NCBI RefSeq assembly: GCF_029688865.1
Contig: NZ_JARUKV010000005.1
Coordinates: forward strand, 62,001 to 126,000
Reading direction: 5' to 3'
Length of the DNA: 64,000 nucleotides
Source: Natronococcus sp. A-GB7
GTDB lineage: Archaea > Halobacteriota > Halobacteria > Halobacteriales > Natrialbaceae
In this document: positions 26,967-42,444 of the stretch, one piece after another
Layout of the letters: the number at the start of each line of letters is the position of its first letter
Numbering within the stretch: position 1 is the stretch's first letter
Notes under the pieces: generated by a model
The model's database searches: none
The model's input: only the letters and a program-made list of their open reading frames with translations
Told to the model about the DNA's origin: nothing
Program-made: the position numbers and the translations under genes

Positions 26967-28490
26967 TCACGCCCAGTCAGCTGATCGAAGAATCGCCTCT
27001 TGCCACCGTTTGTATCGCTGTTCGACGTTCGTCCCTTCCGTCGGAACGAACGTCCGGTCGACTTGCCAGTTCTCCTCGAGTTCGTCGAGAGAGGCCCAGT
27101 AGTCGACGGCGAGCCCAGCGGCGTACGCAGCGCCGAGGGCGGTCGTTTCGTCGACCACTGGACGGATGATCTCGTTTTGCAAGATCGTCGCCTGAAGTTG
27201 ACAAAGGAAGGTATTCCGGACAGCGCCGCCGTCAACGCGAAGCGTCGAGAGCGAGATCGATGCGTCTTCGACCATCGCCTCGGCGACGTCCCGTGTCTGG
27301 AAGGCGATCGACTCGAGCGCAGCACGAACCAGGTGTTCACGACGTGTGTCTCGTGTCAGTCCGACGATGGTCCCGCGTGCCCGCTGGTCCCAGTGTGGGG
27401 CCCCGAGCCCGGTAAGCGCCGGCACGAAATAGACGCCGTCAGTCGACTCGACCCGCCGGGCAAGCTGTTCGGACTCCGCGGGGTCCTCGATAAGCGAAAG
27501 TTGTTCGAGCCACTCTATCGCCGCTCCAGTAGTGAAAATCGGACCCTCAAGCGCGTACTGTGCAGGGTCTCCCGACAGCTGAAATCCGACCGTGGTGAGT
27601 AGCCCGTGTTCGCTCATCACGGCCCGTTCGCCGGTGTTCATGAGCATGAACGATCCCGTTCCGTAGGTCGTTTTCGTCTCGCCTGGCTCGAAGCAGGTCT
27701 GTCCGAACAACGCCGCCTGTTGGTCACCGAGTGCCGCCGCAACGGGGATTTCCGCTCCCAGGAAGCCGGCCGGATCCGTCCGTCCGTAAAGCGCTTCGTC
27801 AGCGGAGGGCCGAACCTCCGGGAGCGCGGCCGCCGGAACGTTGAACTCCGCCAGAAGATCGTCGTCCCACTCCAGATCGAACGTATTGAACAGCATCGTT
27901 CGAGACGCATTGGTAACGTCCGTCACGTGATTGCCCGTTAGATTGTATACGAGCCAACTGTCGATCGTTCCGAGGAGCAGCTCTCCGTCCGCCGCTCGGT
28001 CGCGGACATCTCGAGAACGCAACCGGCTGAGTGTGATCGGATCGGTGTTATCGAGCAGCCACTCGGCTTTCGGTGCCGAAAAGTACGCATTCGGCTCGAG
28101 TCCAGTTTTGTACCGGACGGCGTCGACTTTGTCTTCAGCCTCGAGGCGCTCGATCCGATCCGTCGTTCGACGGTCTTGCCAGACGATCGCGTTCGTAACC
28201 GGCTTCCCTGTCGACGCGTCCCAGAGGACGATCGTCTCTCGCTGGTTCGCTACACCGATCGCTTCCAGCTGGTTCGCCTCGAGGGGACCACGCTCGAGTG
28301 CGTCGGTGATTACACGTTTGGTGTTGTCCCAGATTTCCATCGGGTCGTGCTCGACCCACCCCTGATTCGGATACAACTGTTCGTGTGTGCGAGAGGCGCT
28401 CGAGACGACGTTCCCGCCGTGATCAAAGACACTGAACCGAGTCCCCGCCGTTCCCTGGTTGATTGAACCGACGTACGTGTTTTGAGACAT
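26967..28490 (-). CDS. Glycerol kinase paralogue with substituted active-site Asp
   Basis: 507 residues, full FGGY length. Most glycerol-kinase blocks are kept: WVEHDPMEIW, NQRETIVLW (glycerol-site Arg/Glu), VWQDRRTTDR, NASRTMLFN, GDQQAALFGQ with the catalytic-base Asp, TYGTGSFMLMNTG and GLGAPHWDQRARG. The N-terminal phosphate/Mg motif, normally D-Q-G-T-T, reads here S-I-N-Q-G-T-A-G-T-R: Asp to Asn (residue 11, codon AAC) and Thr to Ala. YFSATK of the canonical paralogue is YFSAPK. The other copy at 40909 is canonical. It may be slow, accept another substrate, or be regulatory. No glp dehydrogenase genes adjoin. Moderately lower GC than core genes. Confidence 0.9.
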   Translation of the reverse strand: MSQNTYVGSINQGTAGTRFSVFDHGGNVVSSASRTHEQLYPNQGWVEHDPMEIWDNTKRVITDALERGPLEANQLEAIGVANQRETIVLWDASTGKPVTNAIVWQDRRTTDRIERLEAEDKVDAVRYKTGLEPNAYFSAPKAEWLLDNTDPITLSRLRSRDVRDRAADGELLLGTIDSWLVYNLTGNHVTDVTNASRTMLFNTFDLEWDDDLLAEFNVPAAALPEVRPSADEALYGRTDPAGFLGAEIPVAAALGDQQAALFGQTCFEPGETKTTYGTGSFMLMNTGERAVMSEHGLLTTVGFQLSGDPAQYALEGPIFTTGAAIEWLEQLSLIEDPAESEQLARRVESTDGVYFVPALTGLGAPHWDQRARGTIVGLTRDTRREHLVRAALESIAFQTRDVAEAMVEDASISLSTLRVDGGAVRNTFLCQLQATILQNEIIRPVVDETTALGAAYAAGLAVDYWASLDELEENWQVDRTFVPTEGTNVEQRYKRWQEAILRSADWA

Positions 28491-34232: not shown

Positions 34233-35051
34233 ATGTACCCGATAGACGAGACGCCCCTCGCCAGCGATGGCAAGATCGTCATCCTGGCATACGATCACGG
34301 GATAGAACACGGACCGGCGGATTTCACCGGAATGCTCGAGCGTGCGGATCCGAGACCGGTGTTCGAGGCCGCCACGCATCCGGCTGTCACCTCGCTCGCC
34401 GTCCAGAAGGGACTCGCGGAGGGATACTATCCCTCCTACGAAGACGACGTCGACCTACTGGTGAAACTCAACGGAACCTCGAACCTCTGGATGGGCGAAC
34501 CCGACACCGCGGTCAACTGCTCCGTGGACTACGCGAACGAGATCGGCGCGTCCTCGGTCGGATTCACGATCTACGCCGGTGCGAACAACGAGATCGGCAT
34601 GGCAGAGGAGTTCCGCGAGGCCCAGGAGAGCGCCCGCGAGCACGACCTCCCGGTAGTGCTGTGGGGGTACCCGCGCGGACAGGGGATCAAAAACGCCTCG
34701 AAGCCCGAGGTCATTCAGTACGCGGCACGGCTGGGACTCGAACTCGGCGCGGACGTGACGAAGGTCAAGTACCCCGGCTCGGAGAGCGCGATGGCGGACG
34801 TCGTCCGGATGGCCGCGGACTCCAAGGTCGTCATGTCCGGCGGGTCGAAGACCACCGATCGCGCGTTCCTCGAGGACGTCCGGGCCACCATGGACGTCGG
34901 CGGGGACGGCGTCGCCGTCGGCAGGAACGTCTGGCAACATGAGGACCCGTCGGCGATTCTCGACGCACTGGAGGCGATCGTCTTCGAGGACGCGACGGTC
35001 GACACCGCGCTGACGAACGCAGGACTCGAGGAGGACGCCCGCGATGAGTGA
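34233..35051 (+). CDS. Class I fructose-1,6-bisphosphate aldolase (DhnA/FbaB type)
   Basis: 272 residues. Archaeal class I aldolase blocks: ILAYDHGIEHGP, TSLAVQKGLA, KLNGTSNLW, GFTIYAGANNE and the Schiff-base Lys region ELGADVTKVKYPG, then VVMSGGSKT and GVAVGRNVWQ for the phosphate. It should cleave and form FBP from DHAP and glyceraldehyde-3-P. Eight bases of overlap with the FBPase gene make the two translationally coupled, and suggest net flux toward fructose-6-P. Confidence 0.93.
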   Translation: MYPIDETPLASDGKIVILAYDHGIEHGPADFTGMLERADPRPVFEAATHPAVTSLAVQKGLAEGYYPSYEDDVDLLVKLNGTSNLWMGEPDTAVNCSVDYANEIGASSVGFTIYAGANNEIGMAEEFREAQESAREHDLPVVLWGYPRGQGIKNASKPEVIQYAARLGLELGADVTKVKYPGSESAMADVVRMAADSKVVMSGGSKTTDRAFLEDVRATMDVGGDGVAVGRNVWQHEDPSAILDALEAIVFEDATVDTALTNAGLEEDARDE

Positions 35052-35910
35052 CGCAACGACCGAGGAGGTGTTCGACGTCGTCGCCGCGACCGCGCCCGAG
35101 ATCCGCGCCACGCTCGTCGACCGCGTCGGCTTCGAGAGCGAGGAGAACCCGAGCGGGGAGAAACAGATCGCGGCCGACGTCCACGCCGACCGGTTGCTCG
35201 AGGAGCGGTTGCGTCCGATCGACGGCGTGAACGAGTACGCAAGCGAAGAGCGCGACGAACTCGTTACCGACGGCGATGGGGAGGATGAGGGGTACGGCGT
35301 CGCCGTCGACCCGGTCGACGGCTCGTCGAACATCGAGACCAACAACGCGGCCGGAACCATCGTCGGGATCTACGACGGAGCGCTTCCAGCCAGCGGCGAC
35401 AAACTCGTCGGTGCCGCGTACGTGCTCTACGGGCCACGGACGACGATGGTCGCCGCGACCGAGGGGTCCGTTACCGAGTACGTCATCGAGGACGGTGACC
35501 GGGCCGTCGTCCGAGAGGACGTCCGTATCCCGGACGAGGCCGGCGACAAGGGCGTGTTCGGATTCGGGGGGCGTGTCTCCGAGTGGCCCGCCGAGGTCGA
35601 AGCGTTCGTCCGCGAGATCGAGCAGGAGCTCAAACTCCGGTACAGCGGCGCGATGATCGGCGACATCAATCAGGTGCTCAGCTACGGCGGGATCTTCGCG
35701 TACCCACCGCTCCGGTCGGCACCGGAGAGCAAGCTTCGGCTGCTGTACGAGGGGAACCCGATCGGTTACATCGTCGAGGCCGCCGGCGGGCGTTCCTCGG
35801 ACGGCGACCGATCGATCCTCGAGGTGCCCCCGGAGGACCTGCACCAGCGCGTTCCGGTTCACATCGGGACGACCGAGTACGTCGACAGGCTCGAAGCCGC
35901 ACTGGACTGA
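35044..35910 (+). CDS. fbp: Fructose-1,6-bisphosphatase class I
   Basis: 288 residues. Metal/phosphate motifs are GVAVDPVDGSSNIETNN (D-P-x-D-G-S-S-N), a Glu in YASEERDE, and the C-terminal GNPIGYIVEAAGG. YSGAMIGDINQVLSYGGIFAYP is typical of the class I enzyme. It hydrolyses FBP to fructose-6-P, the committed step of gluconeogenesis. Overlaps the aldolase gene by 8 bases. Convergent with the HAD gene (13 bases). Confidence 0.93.
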   Translation: MSDATTEEVFDVVAATAPEIRATLVDRVGFESEENPSGEKQIAADVHADRLLEERLRPIDGVNEYASEERDELVTDGDGEDEGYGVAVDPVDGSSNIETNNAAGTIVGIYDGALPASGDKLVGAAYVLYGPRTTMVAATEGSVTEYVIEDGDRAVVREDVRIPDEAGDKGVFGFGGRVSEWPAEVEAFVREIEQELKLRYSGAMIGDINQVLSYGGIFAYPPLRSAPESKLRLLYEGNPIGYIVEAAGGRSSDGDRSILEVPPEDLHQRVPVHIGTTEYVDRLEAALD

Positions 35911-35923
35911 CGGGCAGGTGGAG

Positions 35924-37180
35924 CTACTGCTCTCGCGCCAGCCGGTTGAGCGCGTACACGGTCCGGAGAACGTCGCTGGCACGCCCCCGGTCGAAGACGA
36001 GTTCGTCCGTCGAGAGCACGTGATTCAGGACGCTCTGTGAGGCGTGATCCGGGGCGGCAGCGAGCCCCGCGTCGTTTTCGGCGACCCAGCGCATCACCCG
36101 CAGGTCGCTCTTGGAGTCGCCCATGACGATCGTGAACGGGTCGTCGATCCCGAGCACGTCGAAGGCCGCCTCAACGCCGACCACCTTGCTCAGCTCGAGA
36201 CTGCCGATTTCGGCTGCATCACCCTCGTAGTAGCCGACGTCGATCCGATCGAACACGCTCCGGACGTCCTCGGGAACGTCCGCCGGGGCTGCGGCCGGGA
36301 GCCCCCCTTGTTGCTCGAGAACCAGACGGATTTCGGGATCCTGGTCGGCGTAGTAGGCGCGTGCCCAGTCCTGAGCGGTTTCGATCGCGACGTCTCCGAC
36401 GTGTTCCAGGCTGGTGACGGCGTCACCGAGGAGATCGAGTTCGTAGACGAGCGCGTCGTCGATAGTCTCGCGCGCGGCGTTCGATCCCGTCTCGTAGTTG
36501 GGTTTCATCGTGACGTTGAACTCGTTGCCCTGCAGGTGACAGCCCGTACGGAGCCGCTCGGGGGCCTCCGAGAGAATGCGCGATCGGATGTCGGTGAACA
36601 CGGTCTGGATCTCCGCGTCCAGATCCGCGTAGAGCAACTGTTTGGTGTCGCTGCCGTGTCTCGGCGTGAACACGCCCGTCCCGGTTTCGTACACGATGCT
36701 GAGGTTCCCCGAGTGAACGATCTCGCTGCCCAGCCCCTGGATCGCGAACCCCTTGACGTTCTCCAGGGTCTGCCCGGTACAGATGACGATCGGAACGCCC
36801 GCCTCGTGGAACTTGGTGAGGAGATTGATCGTGTCGCGGGGAATTTCGTTGTCGGTGCTTCCCGTCGAGCGCAGTGTTTCGTCGACGTCGAGGACGAACA
36901 CGTTCACCGCGCGGTCGTACTTCTCGTAGAGGTCGAGCGCGGTAAAGGCCTGCTCCCGCGTCGCCCGGGTCGCCAGATCCGCGAACGTCGCCCCGACCGC
37001 GGGAAACGCGTCGCGGATTTCGGCCTTGCCGTCGGCGAGTTCCTCGCTGGCCTCCTGCCAGCGATCGAGTGCGACGCGGGAGTCGATCGCCGGAAAGAGA
37101 TCGACGAGGTCCTGCAGAGCACGCAGGGTGTCGGTGTCGTGGTTCTCGTACAGCTGGTAGAGTCGGTCGTATCGCTCCAT
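35924..37180 (-). CDS. HAD-superfamily hydrolase with helical N-terminal extension
   Basis: 418 residues. An N-terminal ~90-residue helical region precedes a HAD core: motif I VFVLDVDETLRSTG (nucleophile Asp), motif II-like VICTGQ, a cap with the NLSIVYETG loop, and motif IV IVMGDSKSDLRVMRWV. The fold is closest to Cof-like/sucrose-phosphatase-like HADs. Substrate unknown; it could dephosphorylate a sugar phosphate given the aldolase/FBPase neighbours (inference). The N-terminal extension is unusual for the subfamily. Confidence 0.85.
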   Translation of the reverse strand: MERYDRLYQLYENHDTDTLRALQDLVDLFPAIDSRVALDRWQEASEELADGKAEIRDAFPAVGATFADLATRATREQAFTALDLYEKYDRAVNVFVLDVDETLRSTGSTDNEIPRDTINLLTKFHEAGVPIVICTGQTLENVKGFAIQGLGSEIVHSGNLSIVYETGTGVFTPRHGSDTKQLLYADLDAEIQTVFTDIRSRILSEAPERLRTGCHLQGNEFNVTMKPNYETGSNAARETIDDALVYELDLLGDAVTSLEHVGDVAIETAQDWARAYYADQDPEIRLVLEQQGGLPAAAPADVPEDVRSVFDRIDVGYYEGDAAEIGSLELSKVVGVEAAFDVLGIDDPFTIVMGDSKSDLRVMRWVAENDAGLAAAPDHASQSVLNHVLSTDELVFDRGRASDVLRTVYALNRLAREQ

Positions 37181-39106: not shown

Positions 39107-39802
39107 AGCGACCGGTTCACCGGCCAGAGAGAAAAGTATGCACTCCGGCTGAGTGCCCCGGATTTCCGCGTGACGGCTCGGTTCGATAGGTCTCCGTTAG
39201 TTCCGTTCGCAGTCACATCCCGATAGTACCAGCCAGTCGTAACGTATCGTTCCAGTTCGAATACGATGGTATGTATGTAAACCCCTCCGTCACTCGTATA
39301 GTCACACCTACATTATTTCGACCGGTTCTCGCTCCCTCATGTCACTGACTGCGATCCAGTGTACGTAGCCATGACAACGTACAGACACTGTTCGTGACCG
39401 TACGCTTGACAGTCCGGTCGCGAAGACGACTTCGGGAGTGACCCGTTCGTGTGGATCTCAAGTCGTCTTCGTGGGGTGAGAGCGTTCCGTGTCCGCGGAC
39501 GCGTCGAGAAACCCCAAGCCGAGGCTGGATCTGCTTCTTCGCTCCTCTTTCTCGTCTCCAATAAAAAGGGTATTGCTGGAAGGGCCCTGCTCGCTGCGGA
39601 CTCGCGGGAGGGGGTCGGGTGTTGTCCGATCACGAACGCGGCCTCTGTAGTAGTCGCCGAAAATCAGTGCACTCCCGCTTGCGAATCAGCGGCCGCGCGG
39701 CCGATGCTGGCCGCTCGAGTATGAGTAGCGAGTAACTCGTTTCGACGACGACTGTCCTCCCTCGGGAGAAATTCCATGTAGGTGCGCACCATAGTAAGTG
39801 GT
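39107..39802. other. Gene-less divergent region
   Basis: 696 bases between divergent genes. No coding frame is convincing; the longest (39449-39724 plus, 39337-39633 minus) are out of line with haloarchaeal composition. AT-rich patches at 39250-39330 and 39560 could hold promoters. It is unusually long for this genome and may be a decayed gene. Confidence 0.45.
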
Positions 39803-40654
39803 ATGATAGACGAGACGGTGACACAGATCGAGGAGATGCAGACCCAGAGTGCATCGATCGTAGCAGTGAAGGCTGCCGAAGCGCTCCGGGAACTGACCGA
39901 ACGGGAGTTCTATACCGTCGAAGAGTATCTCCGGTCGCTGAAACGAAACAGCGGGGCGCTCCACCGTGCGAGCCCCTCGCACGCGACGCTGTACACGACA
40001 CAGCGACGTATCGTCACCGACGTTACCGAGTCCGATCCGGACACCGTCGAGGAAGCGAAGGAACGAACGCTCACTGCGATCCAGACCGTCGTCACTGCTG
40101 TCGAGTCGAGCAAGGACCGTGCCGCGGAACGAGCAGCGACGCTCATCGAGGACGGAGACGCGTTGTTGACACACGAGAACTCCTCGACGGTGATGGCAAC
40201 GCTCGAGTACGCTCTCGATGCGGGCAAGCAGTTCGAACTGTACGTGACGGAGTCTCGGCCGCGTTTCATCGGGCGGAAAACCGCCCGCCAGCTAGCCGAT
40301 CGTGACGGTGTCGCGGTGACGCTCATCACCGACAGTGCTGCGGGGCACTTCCTCTCCCAGTGCGATCGAGTCATGGTCGGGATGAACTGCATCATCGAGG
40401 AGACCGTGTACAACCGCGTGGGGACGTACCCGATCATCGCAACCGCGGCCGAGTCGAACGTGCCGGCAACGGTCGTCGGATCGTCGACGAAGTTCATCGA
40501 CAGCGGCTTCGTGTTCGAAAACGAGCACCGATTGGCGTCCGAAGTACTGCTCGAACCGTCGGAGGGGTTCGACGTGGCGAACCCCGCGTACGACGCGACA
40601 CCGGTGGGCCTCCTCGAGACGGTCGTTACGGACGAGCAGATACACGAGTACTGA
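39803..40654 (+). CDS. eIF2B-alpha / R15P-isomerase family protein lacking catalytic residues
   Basis: 283 residues from the ATG at 39803. The C-terminal Rossmann half carries family blocks LLTHENSSTVMATLEYA, ELYVTESRPRFIGRKTARQLA, LITDSAAGHFL, DRVMVGMN and YNRVGTYPIIATAAE. In ribose-1,5-bisphosphate and methylthioribose-1-phosphate isomerases the catalytic Cys lies in T-H-C-N and the catalytic Asp in V-G-A-D; here these are T-H-E-N and V-G-M-N. Both catalytic positions are thus replaced, as in eIF2B-alpha-like regulatory members. It may bind a phosphosugar without isomerising it (inference). It is followed 255 bases later by the canonical glycerol kinase gene. Confidence 0.85.
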   Translation: MIDETVTQIEEMQTQSASIVAVKAAEALRELTEREFYTVEEYLRSLKRNSGALHRASPSHATLYTTQRRIVTDVTESDPDTVEEAKERTLTAIQTVVTAVESSKDRAAERAATLIEDGDALLTHENSSTVMATLEYALDAGKQFELYVTESRPRFIGRKTARQLADRDGVAVTLITDSAAGHFLSQCDRVMVGMNCIIEETVYNRVGTYPIIATAAESNVPATVVGSSTKFIDSGFVFENEHRLASEVLLEPSEGFDVANPAYDATPVGLLETVVTDEQIHEY

Positions 40655-40908
40655 TGAACTGCGACCGTTACCTGTTTCGTCTCCGGAGATTTCGGTCGGC
40701 AGCGCTCGCTTCCTTGGTTCACGGCGACGGCCAGTCGACCACGTCCTCCTCCACCGACAGTAGTGTTCGACGGTCGTTCGAACCACGGTTCACTGGCGGC
40801 ACCATAAGTTTAAGACTCTGGTGAGCATTGTCCACACGGACCAGGATACGCCAGTACTCGTAGCTGTCGCAGACACGGGGCGACTGATTACGAACAAACC
40901 AACCACAC

Positions 40909-42444
40909 ATGTCCTCAGAAAACACATACGTCGGTGCGATCGATCAAGGAACGACCGGCACACGGTTTATGATATTCGACCGGAGCGGGAGAATCCTCAC
41001 CAGCGCCTACGAGAAACACGAACAGATCTACCCGGAACCGGGCTGGGTCGAACACGACCCCAGAGAAATCTGGGAGACGACGACGCAGGTCATCGAGACC
41101 GCGCTCGACTCGGCCGACCTCGACGCCGAACAACTCGCGGCGATCGGTGTCACCAACCAGCGCGAGACGACCGTCGTCTGGGAGCGTGACACGGGCGAGC
41201 CGGTTCACAACGCGATCGTCTGGCAAGACCGGCGGACGACCGACCGGATCGAAGAACTCGAGGAGGAGGGCAAAGTCGGGGAGATCCGCGAGAAAACCGG
41301 CCTCGAGGCGGACGCGTACTTTTCGGCGACGAAAGTCGAGTGGCTGCTCGACAACGCTGCGCCGGTCAAGATGCAGCGCTCGCGACCGGCCGATTTCCAC
41401 GAACGGGCGGCCGACGGAGAGCTCTGCTTCGGTACGATCGACTCCTGGGTGATCTACAACCTCACGGGCAACCACATCACCGAGGTGACGAACGCCTCGC
41501 GGACCATGCTGTACAACATTCACGACCTCGAGTGGGACGACGAACTCCTCGAGGAGTTCGGAGTTCCGGAGGCGATGCTGCCGGAGGTCCGTCCGTCCAG
41601 CGACGAGGCACTCTACGGCCACACCGACGCGGACGGCTTCCTCGGTGCCGAGGTTCCGGTCGCAGGTGCCCTGGGCGACCAGCAGGCGGCGCTGTTCGGC
41701 CAGACGTGCTTCGATCCGGGTGACGCGAAGAACACCTACGGGACAGGGTCGTTCTTCCTCACGAACACCGGCACCGAGGCAGTCACGAGCGATCACGGGC
41801 TGTTGACGACGATCGGCTTTCAGCGCTCGGGCGAACCCGTCCAGTACGCCCTCGAGGGAGCGATCTTCGTGACGGGCGCGGCGATCGAGTGGCTCGAGGA
41901 CGTCGGTCTGATCGACGACCCGGGCCAGACCGAGCAACTGGCACGAAGCGTCGACTCGACCGATGGCGTGTACTTGGTGCCGGCGTTTACCGGCCTCGGC
42001 GCCCCGTACTGGGACGGCCGCGCTCGGGGCGCGATCGTCGGGATGACCCGCGGTACTCGCAAGGAACACATCGTCCGTGCGACGCTCGAATCGATCGCCT
42101 TCCAGACGCTCGACGTCGCGGAGGCGATGGAAGCCGACACTGGGCTCGAGATCACGAGTCTCAAAGTAGATGGGGGCGCGGTGAAGAACAACTTCCTCTG
42201 TCAGCAGCAGGCGGATATCCTCGAGGTAGAGATCGTCCGTCCCGAAGTCGACGAGACGACCGCGCTTGGCTCCGCGTACGCTGCAGGTCTCGCCGTCGGC
42301 TACTGGGACGATCTCGACGAACTTCGAGACAACTGGCAGGTTGACCGGAAATTCACTCCCGAGGAAACCGAAGACGTCGATCGACGCCACGAGCGCTGGA
42401 AGGACGCGATCGAACGCGCTCGTGACTGGGCTCGCAAGGAGTGA
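40909..42444 (+). CDS. glpK: Glycerol kinase
   Basis: 511 residues. All key motifs are intact: G-A-I-D-Q-G-T-T-G-T-R (phosphate/Mg Asp, residue 12), NQRETTVVW, VWQDRRTTDR, YFSATKVEW, GDQQAALFGQ (catalytic base), TYGTGSFF and GLGAPYWDGRARG. ATP-dependent phosphorylation of glycerol gives sn-glycerol-3-P. Many haloarchaea place glpABC next to it; here they are absent. TATA-like AGTTTAAG at 40808 is about 100 bases upstream, implying a leader. A paralogue with a substituted motif is at 26967. Confidence 0.97.
   Translation: MSSENTYVGAIDQGTTGTRFMIFDRSGRILTSAYEKHEQIYPEPGWVEHDPREIWETTTQVIETALDSADLDAEQLAAIGVTNQRETTVVWERDTGEPVHNAIVWQDRRTTDRIEELEEEGKVGEIREKTGLEADAYFSATKVEWLLDNAAPVKMQRSRPADFHERAADGELCFGTIDSWVIYNLTGNHITEVTNASRTMLYNIHDLEWDDELLEEFGVPEAMLPEVRPSSDEALYGHTDADGFLGAEVPVAGALGDQQAALFGQTCFDPGDAKNTYGTGSFFLTNTGTEAVTSDHGLLTTIGFQRSGEPVQYALEGAIFVTGAAIEWLEDVGLIDDPGQTEQLARSVDSTDGVYLVPAFTGLGAPYWDGRARGAIVGMTRGTRKEHIVRATLESIAFQTLDVAEAMEADTGLEITSLKVDGGAVKNNFLCQQQADILEVEIVRPEVDETTALGSAYAAGLAVGYWDDLDELRDNWQVDRKFTPEETEDVDRRHERWKDAIERARDWARKE

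Follow-up and report, generated by a model that had tools for sequence, protein, structure and literature searches.

The IF-2B family contains enzymes, namely the R15P isomerases (R15Pi) and MtnA, and also the alpha subunit of eIF2B. The isomerase has been studied through variants: C135S and D204N have lost activity and still bind R15P, with Kd values of 13.8 and 10 µM, respectively, and C135A binds no substrate and holds the product weakly (PMC5789824). The residues which bind the 1-phosphate in this enzyme are reported to be missing from eIF2B-alpha (PMC5789824). Human eIF2B-alpha binds F6P in the same pocket, with activation by F6P (PMC8187479), and the Kd is quoted as 9.4 µM in PMC8576121. 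PMC8187479 raises the question of why eIF2B came to be built around a sugar-phosphate isomerase. Archaea lack the catalytic eIF2B subunits gamma and epsilon, and what their “aIF2B” proteins do without these partners has been called unknown (PMC8576121).

The protein described here belongs to this family and is probably a non-catalytic paralogue of R15Pi and of eIF2B-alpha, -beta and -delta. With moderate confidence, it is proposed to be a sensor of sugar monophosphates which tunes the flux from glycerol to storage carbohydrate.

The gene and its altered active site

The gene lies at 39803..40654 on the forward strand of the window, that is, the whole 64,000-nucleotide stretch of Natronococcus DNA that was analysed. 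The reading frame is open throughout and, according to the ORF, Pfam, alignment and tree, encodes a 283-aa, predicted isomerase-dead IF-2B family protein of what is called here the E/N clade. The start is the conserved ATG at 39803, relatives opening with M-I-D-[EQ]-T-V, and GTG at 39782 is an alternative in-frame start. A match of 161.4 bits to Pfam IF-2B (PF01008; cut-off, 22.4 bits) over residues 14-277 places the protein in the superfamily, but with the R15P isomerase model TIGR00511 it scores 148.3 bits and does not reach the curated cut-off of 314.1 bits, and with the MtnA model TIGR00512 it scores 81.2 bits, far under the cut-off of 279 bits. The top phmmer matches in the PDB are the R15P isomerases TK0185 and PH0208 (E ~1e-29), and human eIF2B-alpha ranks below an Archaeoglobus family member. 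When residues 98-233 are taken alone, human eIF2B-alpha scores 77 bits and R15Pi 75-77 bits. An earlier note on this DNA had described the protein as “eIF2B-alpha-like”; its nearest relatives are of the HVO_2706 type. The AF2 model (pLDDT 92.3) is also closest to R15Pi among known structures (TM 0.91 with 3a11), and the structure match with the best E-value is 5yft, the D204N mutant of R15Pi.

The earlier note held that both catalytic residues of the isomerase are replaced, and the alignment to TK0185 and PH0208 bears this out. The T-H-E-N motif (residues 123-126; 40169..40180, +) falls on the T-H-C-H block and the V-G-M-N motif (residues 192-195; 40376..40387, +) on the M-G-A-D block. Glu125 (codon 40175-40177, +) thereby stands in place of the catalytic Cys133 of TK0185 or Cys135 of PH0208, and Asn195 (codon 40385-40387, +) in place of the catalytic Asp202/Asp204; in the same alignment no substitute Cys or Asp was found elsewhere in the protein. 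The PDB holds isomerase mutants engineered at both sites, C133S (3vm6) and D204N (5yft), and the D-to-N change is natural in the window protein. Human eIF2B-alpha has Ala and Glu at the two sites. Among the 30 E/N clade sequences, the Cys site is Glu in 29 and the Asp site is Asn in all 30; a clade member in genome G398 has Gly at the Cys site.

The published RuBP-binding residues of PH0208 (PMC5789824) were mapped onto these 30 sequences and 44 sequences of the core clade, the paralogous group described below. The 5-phosphate ligands Ser137 and Lys240 and the sugar ligand Asn214 (PH0208 numbering) are invariant in 74/74 haloarchaeal sequences. In the window protein the retained 5-phosphate ligands are Ser127 and Lys230 (codon 40490..40492, +), the latter equivalent to Lys240 of PH0208 and K234 of human eIF2B-alpha, and the retained sugar ligand is Asn204 (Asn204-Arg205 codons, 40412..40417, +), equivalent to Asn214 of PH0208 and N208 of human eIF2B-alpha (PMC5789824, PMC8187479). 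The 1-phosphate ligands are replaced in the E/N clade, Arg22 by Gln, Arg65 by Asn or Ser, Gln166 by Leu or Ile and, in 28/30 sequences, Lys215 by Arg (Arg205 in the window protein). Since the 1-phosphate ligands are lost and the 5-phosphate and sugar ligands are kept, the expected ligand would be a monophosphate. The sensing of phosphosugars suggested in the earlier note would be in keeping with the retained ligands.

Ten positions cleanly separate the E/N clade from the core clade, and four of these (Q15, E125, N126 and N195) belong to the pocket of 17 residues (p=0.0015). Pocket positions have a mean conservation of 0.96, the remaining positions one of 0.81. Judging from its residues, the pocket is re-specialised rather than decayed. 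The window gene is under purifying selection, dN/dS against its counterpart in another genome, G017, being 0.147; a conserved clade together with a ratio of 0.15 rules out chance or assembly error as the origin of the replacements.

The conserved pocket is also compatible with an enzyme. Glu serves as the base in other aldose-ketose isomerases, and Glu125 might act as a general base in place of Cys, so that the protein would be a working enzyme of altered chemistry isomerising another (mono)phosphosugar of the island pathway. The strong conservation of the pocket, the fixation of E and N without drift and the position of the gene among sugar-phosphate enzymes speak for such an activity. However, the Asp essential to R15Pi is Asn throughout the clade, and in PH0208 this change abolishes turnover (PMC5789824); moreover, the Gly in the G398 member is incapable of acting as a base, and every step of the pathway appears to have its enzyme. 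An isomerase of this kind is thus unlikely, though it is the chief alternative to a sensor.

Descent and distribution of the E/N clade

In a tree of 56 sequences rooted on R15Pi, all haloarchaeal sequences with Asn195 fall into one clade with support of 100/100, so that the C-to-E and D-to-N changes do mark a conserved haloarchaeal clade, a point which the earlier note had proposed to check. The clade is sister to Haloarcula core sequences (100/98) and groups with the core to the exclusion of R15Pi. By this topology it appears to be a duplicate of the near-universal HVO_2706-type core paralogue, and the members in Natrialbaceae and in a second family suggest that the duplication took place near Haloarcula and was followed by transfer.

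The window genome has three further family members. L001 is a canonical R15Pi (THCHS/VGADS) whose TIGR00511 score of 459.7 bits is over the cut-off, and L002 is a paralogue with 61% identity to the window protein and the motifs THDYS/VGMDC. L004 (G000:C8) is a NUDIX-eIF2B fusion which has T-L-S-R-S at the Cys motif and retains V-G-A-D. Judged by the sizes and names given in PMC8576121, L001, L002 and L004 would be the counterparts of Haloferax HVO_0966, HVO_2706 and HVO_1934, respectively, and the core clade is likewise presumed from size and name to be the HVO_2706 type.

A family match is present in 391/391 haloarchaeal genomes, mostly at HVO_2706-type similarity. The HENSSTV DNA pattern occurs in 31 of the 391, and 26 of these 31 have true members by protein hits (~7% of the sample); with G036, from outside the sample, the E/N-positive set comes to 27. 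A single genus (g36, Haloarcula) supplies 18 carriers, and members are also found in Natrialbaceae (the window genome, G017 and G036) and in another family (g54, g61). Carriers with a species name include Haloarcula japonica, H. vallismortis, H. argentinensis, H. amylolytica and Halomicroarcula rubra. The core clade, too, departs from the canonical motifs: its Cys site is Asp, and in Halorientalis and some Halovenus the catalytic Asp has given way to Ser or Thr. The HVO_2706-type paralogue (core-type loci L183, L193, L196, L198, L216, L220, L224, L230 and L232-L234) thus probably makes up another family of non-isomerases that is annotated as an initiation factor.

The E/N protein, as a duplicate of the core protein, might be a non-catalytic subunit which joins it in mixed oligomers in the style of eIF2B alpha/beta/delta and modulates its function. 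A core copy is also present in the E/N genomes inspected, and dimers and hexamers are known in the family (PMC5789824), but the core genes lie in different neighbourhoods and pull-downs in Haloferax gave the core protein only one or two partners (PMC8576121), so this arrangement is improbable.

Gene neighbourhoods and carbon metabolism

The order in the window is FBA (class I)-FBPase / HAD / HpcH / 2-hydroxyacid dehydrogenase / E/N protein / glpK, and the earlier note had located the FBA, FBPase, HAD and HpcH genes correctly. The island starts with an FBA-like class I (DhnA/DeoC-type) aldolase gene (34233..35051, +), which has an orthologue in G017 and overlaps the gene for fructose-1,6-bisphosphatase (35044..35910, +). 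A second, 59% identical copy of the latter is elsewhere in the genome, as is a second copy of the Cof-type HAD phosphatase (418 aa; 35924..37180, -), for which a sequence search against the PDB gave no match. Because extra FBPase, HAD and TreT copies are present outside it, the window island is a supplementary set of duplicated central-carbon genes. MalQ (4-alpha-glucanotransferase) and the island-type sugar nucleotidyltransferase found in other carriers are absent from the window genome.

The glycerol kinase gene glpK (40909..42444, +), over the NCBIfam cut-off, adjoins the E/N gene after a gap of 254 bp. This gap carries a TATA-like element, taagtttaa (40805..40813, +), upstream of glpK and conserved in G017, so that co-transcription is doubtful, an operon of the two genes is unsupported and glpK is probably transcribed on its own, from its own promoter. 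Another glycerol kinase gene, with 69% identity to this one, is located at 26967-28490 (-) of the window; its third-position GC is 0.71 and that of glpK at 40909 is 0.81.

The G017 protein is 88% identical to the window protein, and its locus has the order FBA-FBPase-HAD-TreT-E/N protein-GlpA fragment-GlpK-nucleotidyltransferase. HpcH and the 2-hydroxyacid dehydrogenase are not in this syntenic locus, TreT being in their place, and they are not conserved partners. Between the clade gene and glpK of G017 (L061:10294-11229) there is a GlpA-like protein of 311 aa, with a DAO N-terminal half and a cysteine-rich domain, which appears to have suffered an internal deletion; the corresponding stretch of the window measures just 254 bp.

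In Halomicroarcula rubra the order is GlpK-TreT-HAD-PGM-FBPase-E/N protein-FBA(II)-nucleotidyltransferase, and in Haloarcula it is GlpA-E/N protein, then MalQ, a GlgA-like glycosyltransferase, DUF7510, a nucleotidyltransferase and GH15. The MAG QS_4_62_28 has FBPase, FBA II, PGM and glucan genes all together, and G263 has its glucan genes ~20 kb away on the contig of the clade gene. In genus g54 the gene immediately after the clade gene encodes HAD, which is also near clade genes in g1, g8 and g36 (G399), and the island HAD copies are extra copies in the window genome, G017 and G399; as a clade-specific partner it was dropped, the family being present in 295/391 haloarchaeal genomes. The recurring partners of the E/N genes are GlpK/GlpA, FBA, FBPase, HAD, TreT, PGM, a sugar nucleotidyltransferase and glucan enzymes, and what the loci share is the conversion of glycerol, by way of gluconeogenesis, into glycogen or trehalose. 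The link to a carbon island made in the earlier note recurs in other genera, with HpcH as an incidental neighbour. Some Haloarcula core copies (L093, L096, L194 and L202) adjoin class I FBA and ketohexokinase (Khk), which is another phosphosugar association.

Seven markers were set in the Natrialbaceae islands and scored in loci outside Natrialbaceae to limit circularity. Carbon markers are present at 12/14 E/N loci and at 2/50 other family loci (p=2.3e-9), the p-values given here overstating independence because the loci share ancestry (many are from Haloarcula). Not every E/N locus has carbon markers within 9 kb, examples without them being Haloarcula salina L160, L172, G348 and G411. In genome content, counted without the genomes G398 and G406, whose clade members are variants, and with G036 only 55% complete, MalQ is present in 24/27 E/N-positive and 10/33 E/N-negative genomes (p=5e-6), and within genera g12, g36, g47 and g63 in 20/21 and 2/17, respectively. 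The island-type nucleotidyltransferase (>=70% identity to that of G017) is present in 19/27 E/N-positive and 0/33 E/N-negative genomes (p=1.1e-9).

This last distribution is the reason for considering that the protein might be a stand-alone allosteric subunit, a sugar-phosphate sensor similar to eIF2B-alpha, whose target in trans would be the short sugar nucleotidyltransferase of the islands (PF00483, 319 aa). The gamma and epsilon subunits of eIF2B have a nucleotidyltransferase fold, and such a sensor, if true, would reproduce in metabolism the architecture of eIF2B, whose alpha/beta/delta sensor core sits on gamma/epsilon. Genomic linkage is its sole basis, proximity is not interaction and the island type is absent from the window genome itself; the chance that it is correct is slim.

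Proposed function and comparison with known systems

It is very unlikely that the protein is an aIF2B subunit serving translation initiation, which is a frequent annotation of the family. The homology to eIF2B-alpha (77 bits over the C-terminal half) speaks for this role, as does the in vitro binding of aIF2-alpha by archaeal members (Dev et al. 2009, as cited in PMC8576121). Against it, the distribution is patchy (~7% of genomes), the gene context is carbon metabolism, archaea lack the catalytic eIF2B subunits, and HVO_2706, the nearest studied paralogue, can be deleted and has few links to initiation factors (PMC8576121).

A ligand-binding regulator fits best, because the catalytic residues are lost, the pocket is conserved but altered, selection is purifying and the linkage is to one pathway. 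In the proposed sensor, the old active site would bind a sugar monophosphate, for example a hexose phosphate such as F6P or G6P, a triose phosphate or a glycerol phosphate, and ligand-dependent oligomerisation would then adjust one or more enzymes of the pathway from glycerol through G3P/DHAP, FBP, F6P, G1P and NDP-glucose to glycogen or trehalose. Sugar-phosphate binding, the identity of the ligand, the target protein and the direction of the effect are points which we infer.

A literature search in a limited paper collection found no haloarchaeal link between eIF2B and glycogen or between eIF2B and glycerol kinase, and no report of the E/N clade or of its glucan link. The clade offers an archaeal case in which the catalytic residues were lost, the pocket was re-specialised and the gene has kept its tie to carbon metabolism and not to translation, and it argues against the initiation-factor annotation of these genes. 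Ligand-binding and deletion tests are feasible because carriers are available from culture collections (Haloarcula japonica DSM 6131, H. vallismortis ATCC 29715 and H. argentinensis DSM 12282).

Compared with the known systems, the window protein has in common with R15Pi TK0185 and PH0208 the fold (TM 0.91), the 5-phosphate ligands and the Asn sugar ligand, whereas the two catalytic residues are replaced, as is the 1-phosphate site. With MtnA it shares the family and the fold, but the catalytic Cys and Asp of MtnA are missing. Like eIF2B-alpha, it is probably non-catalytic, keeps the 5-phosphate and Asn ligands and has no 1-phosphate site (PMC5789824, PMC8187479); however, A129, Y130, R132 and E198 of the eIF2B-alpha pocket are E, N, S and N in the window protein and only N208 and K234 are common, so that affinity for F6P is not to be assumed, since Y130 and E198 are Asn and R132 is Ser. 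The HVO_2706-type core (L002 in the window genome) has the same length and mostly 51-68% identity, has also lost the catalytic Cys and keeps the same 5-phosphate and Asn ligands as the E/N clade, but it has T-H-D-[YF] and V-G-M-D, mostly with Asp204 kept, in place of THEN and VGMN, and it is near-universal and in a different neighbourhood, whereas the E/N clade is patchy. The closest relatives of the window protein are the haloarchaeal HVO_2706-type paralogues and not eIF2B-alpha, while its overall fold is nearest to that of R15Pi.
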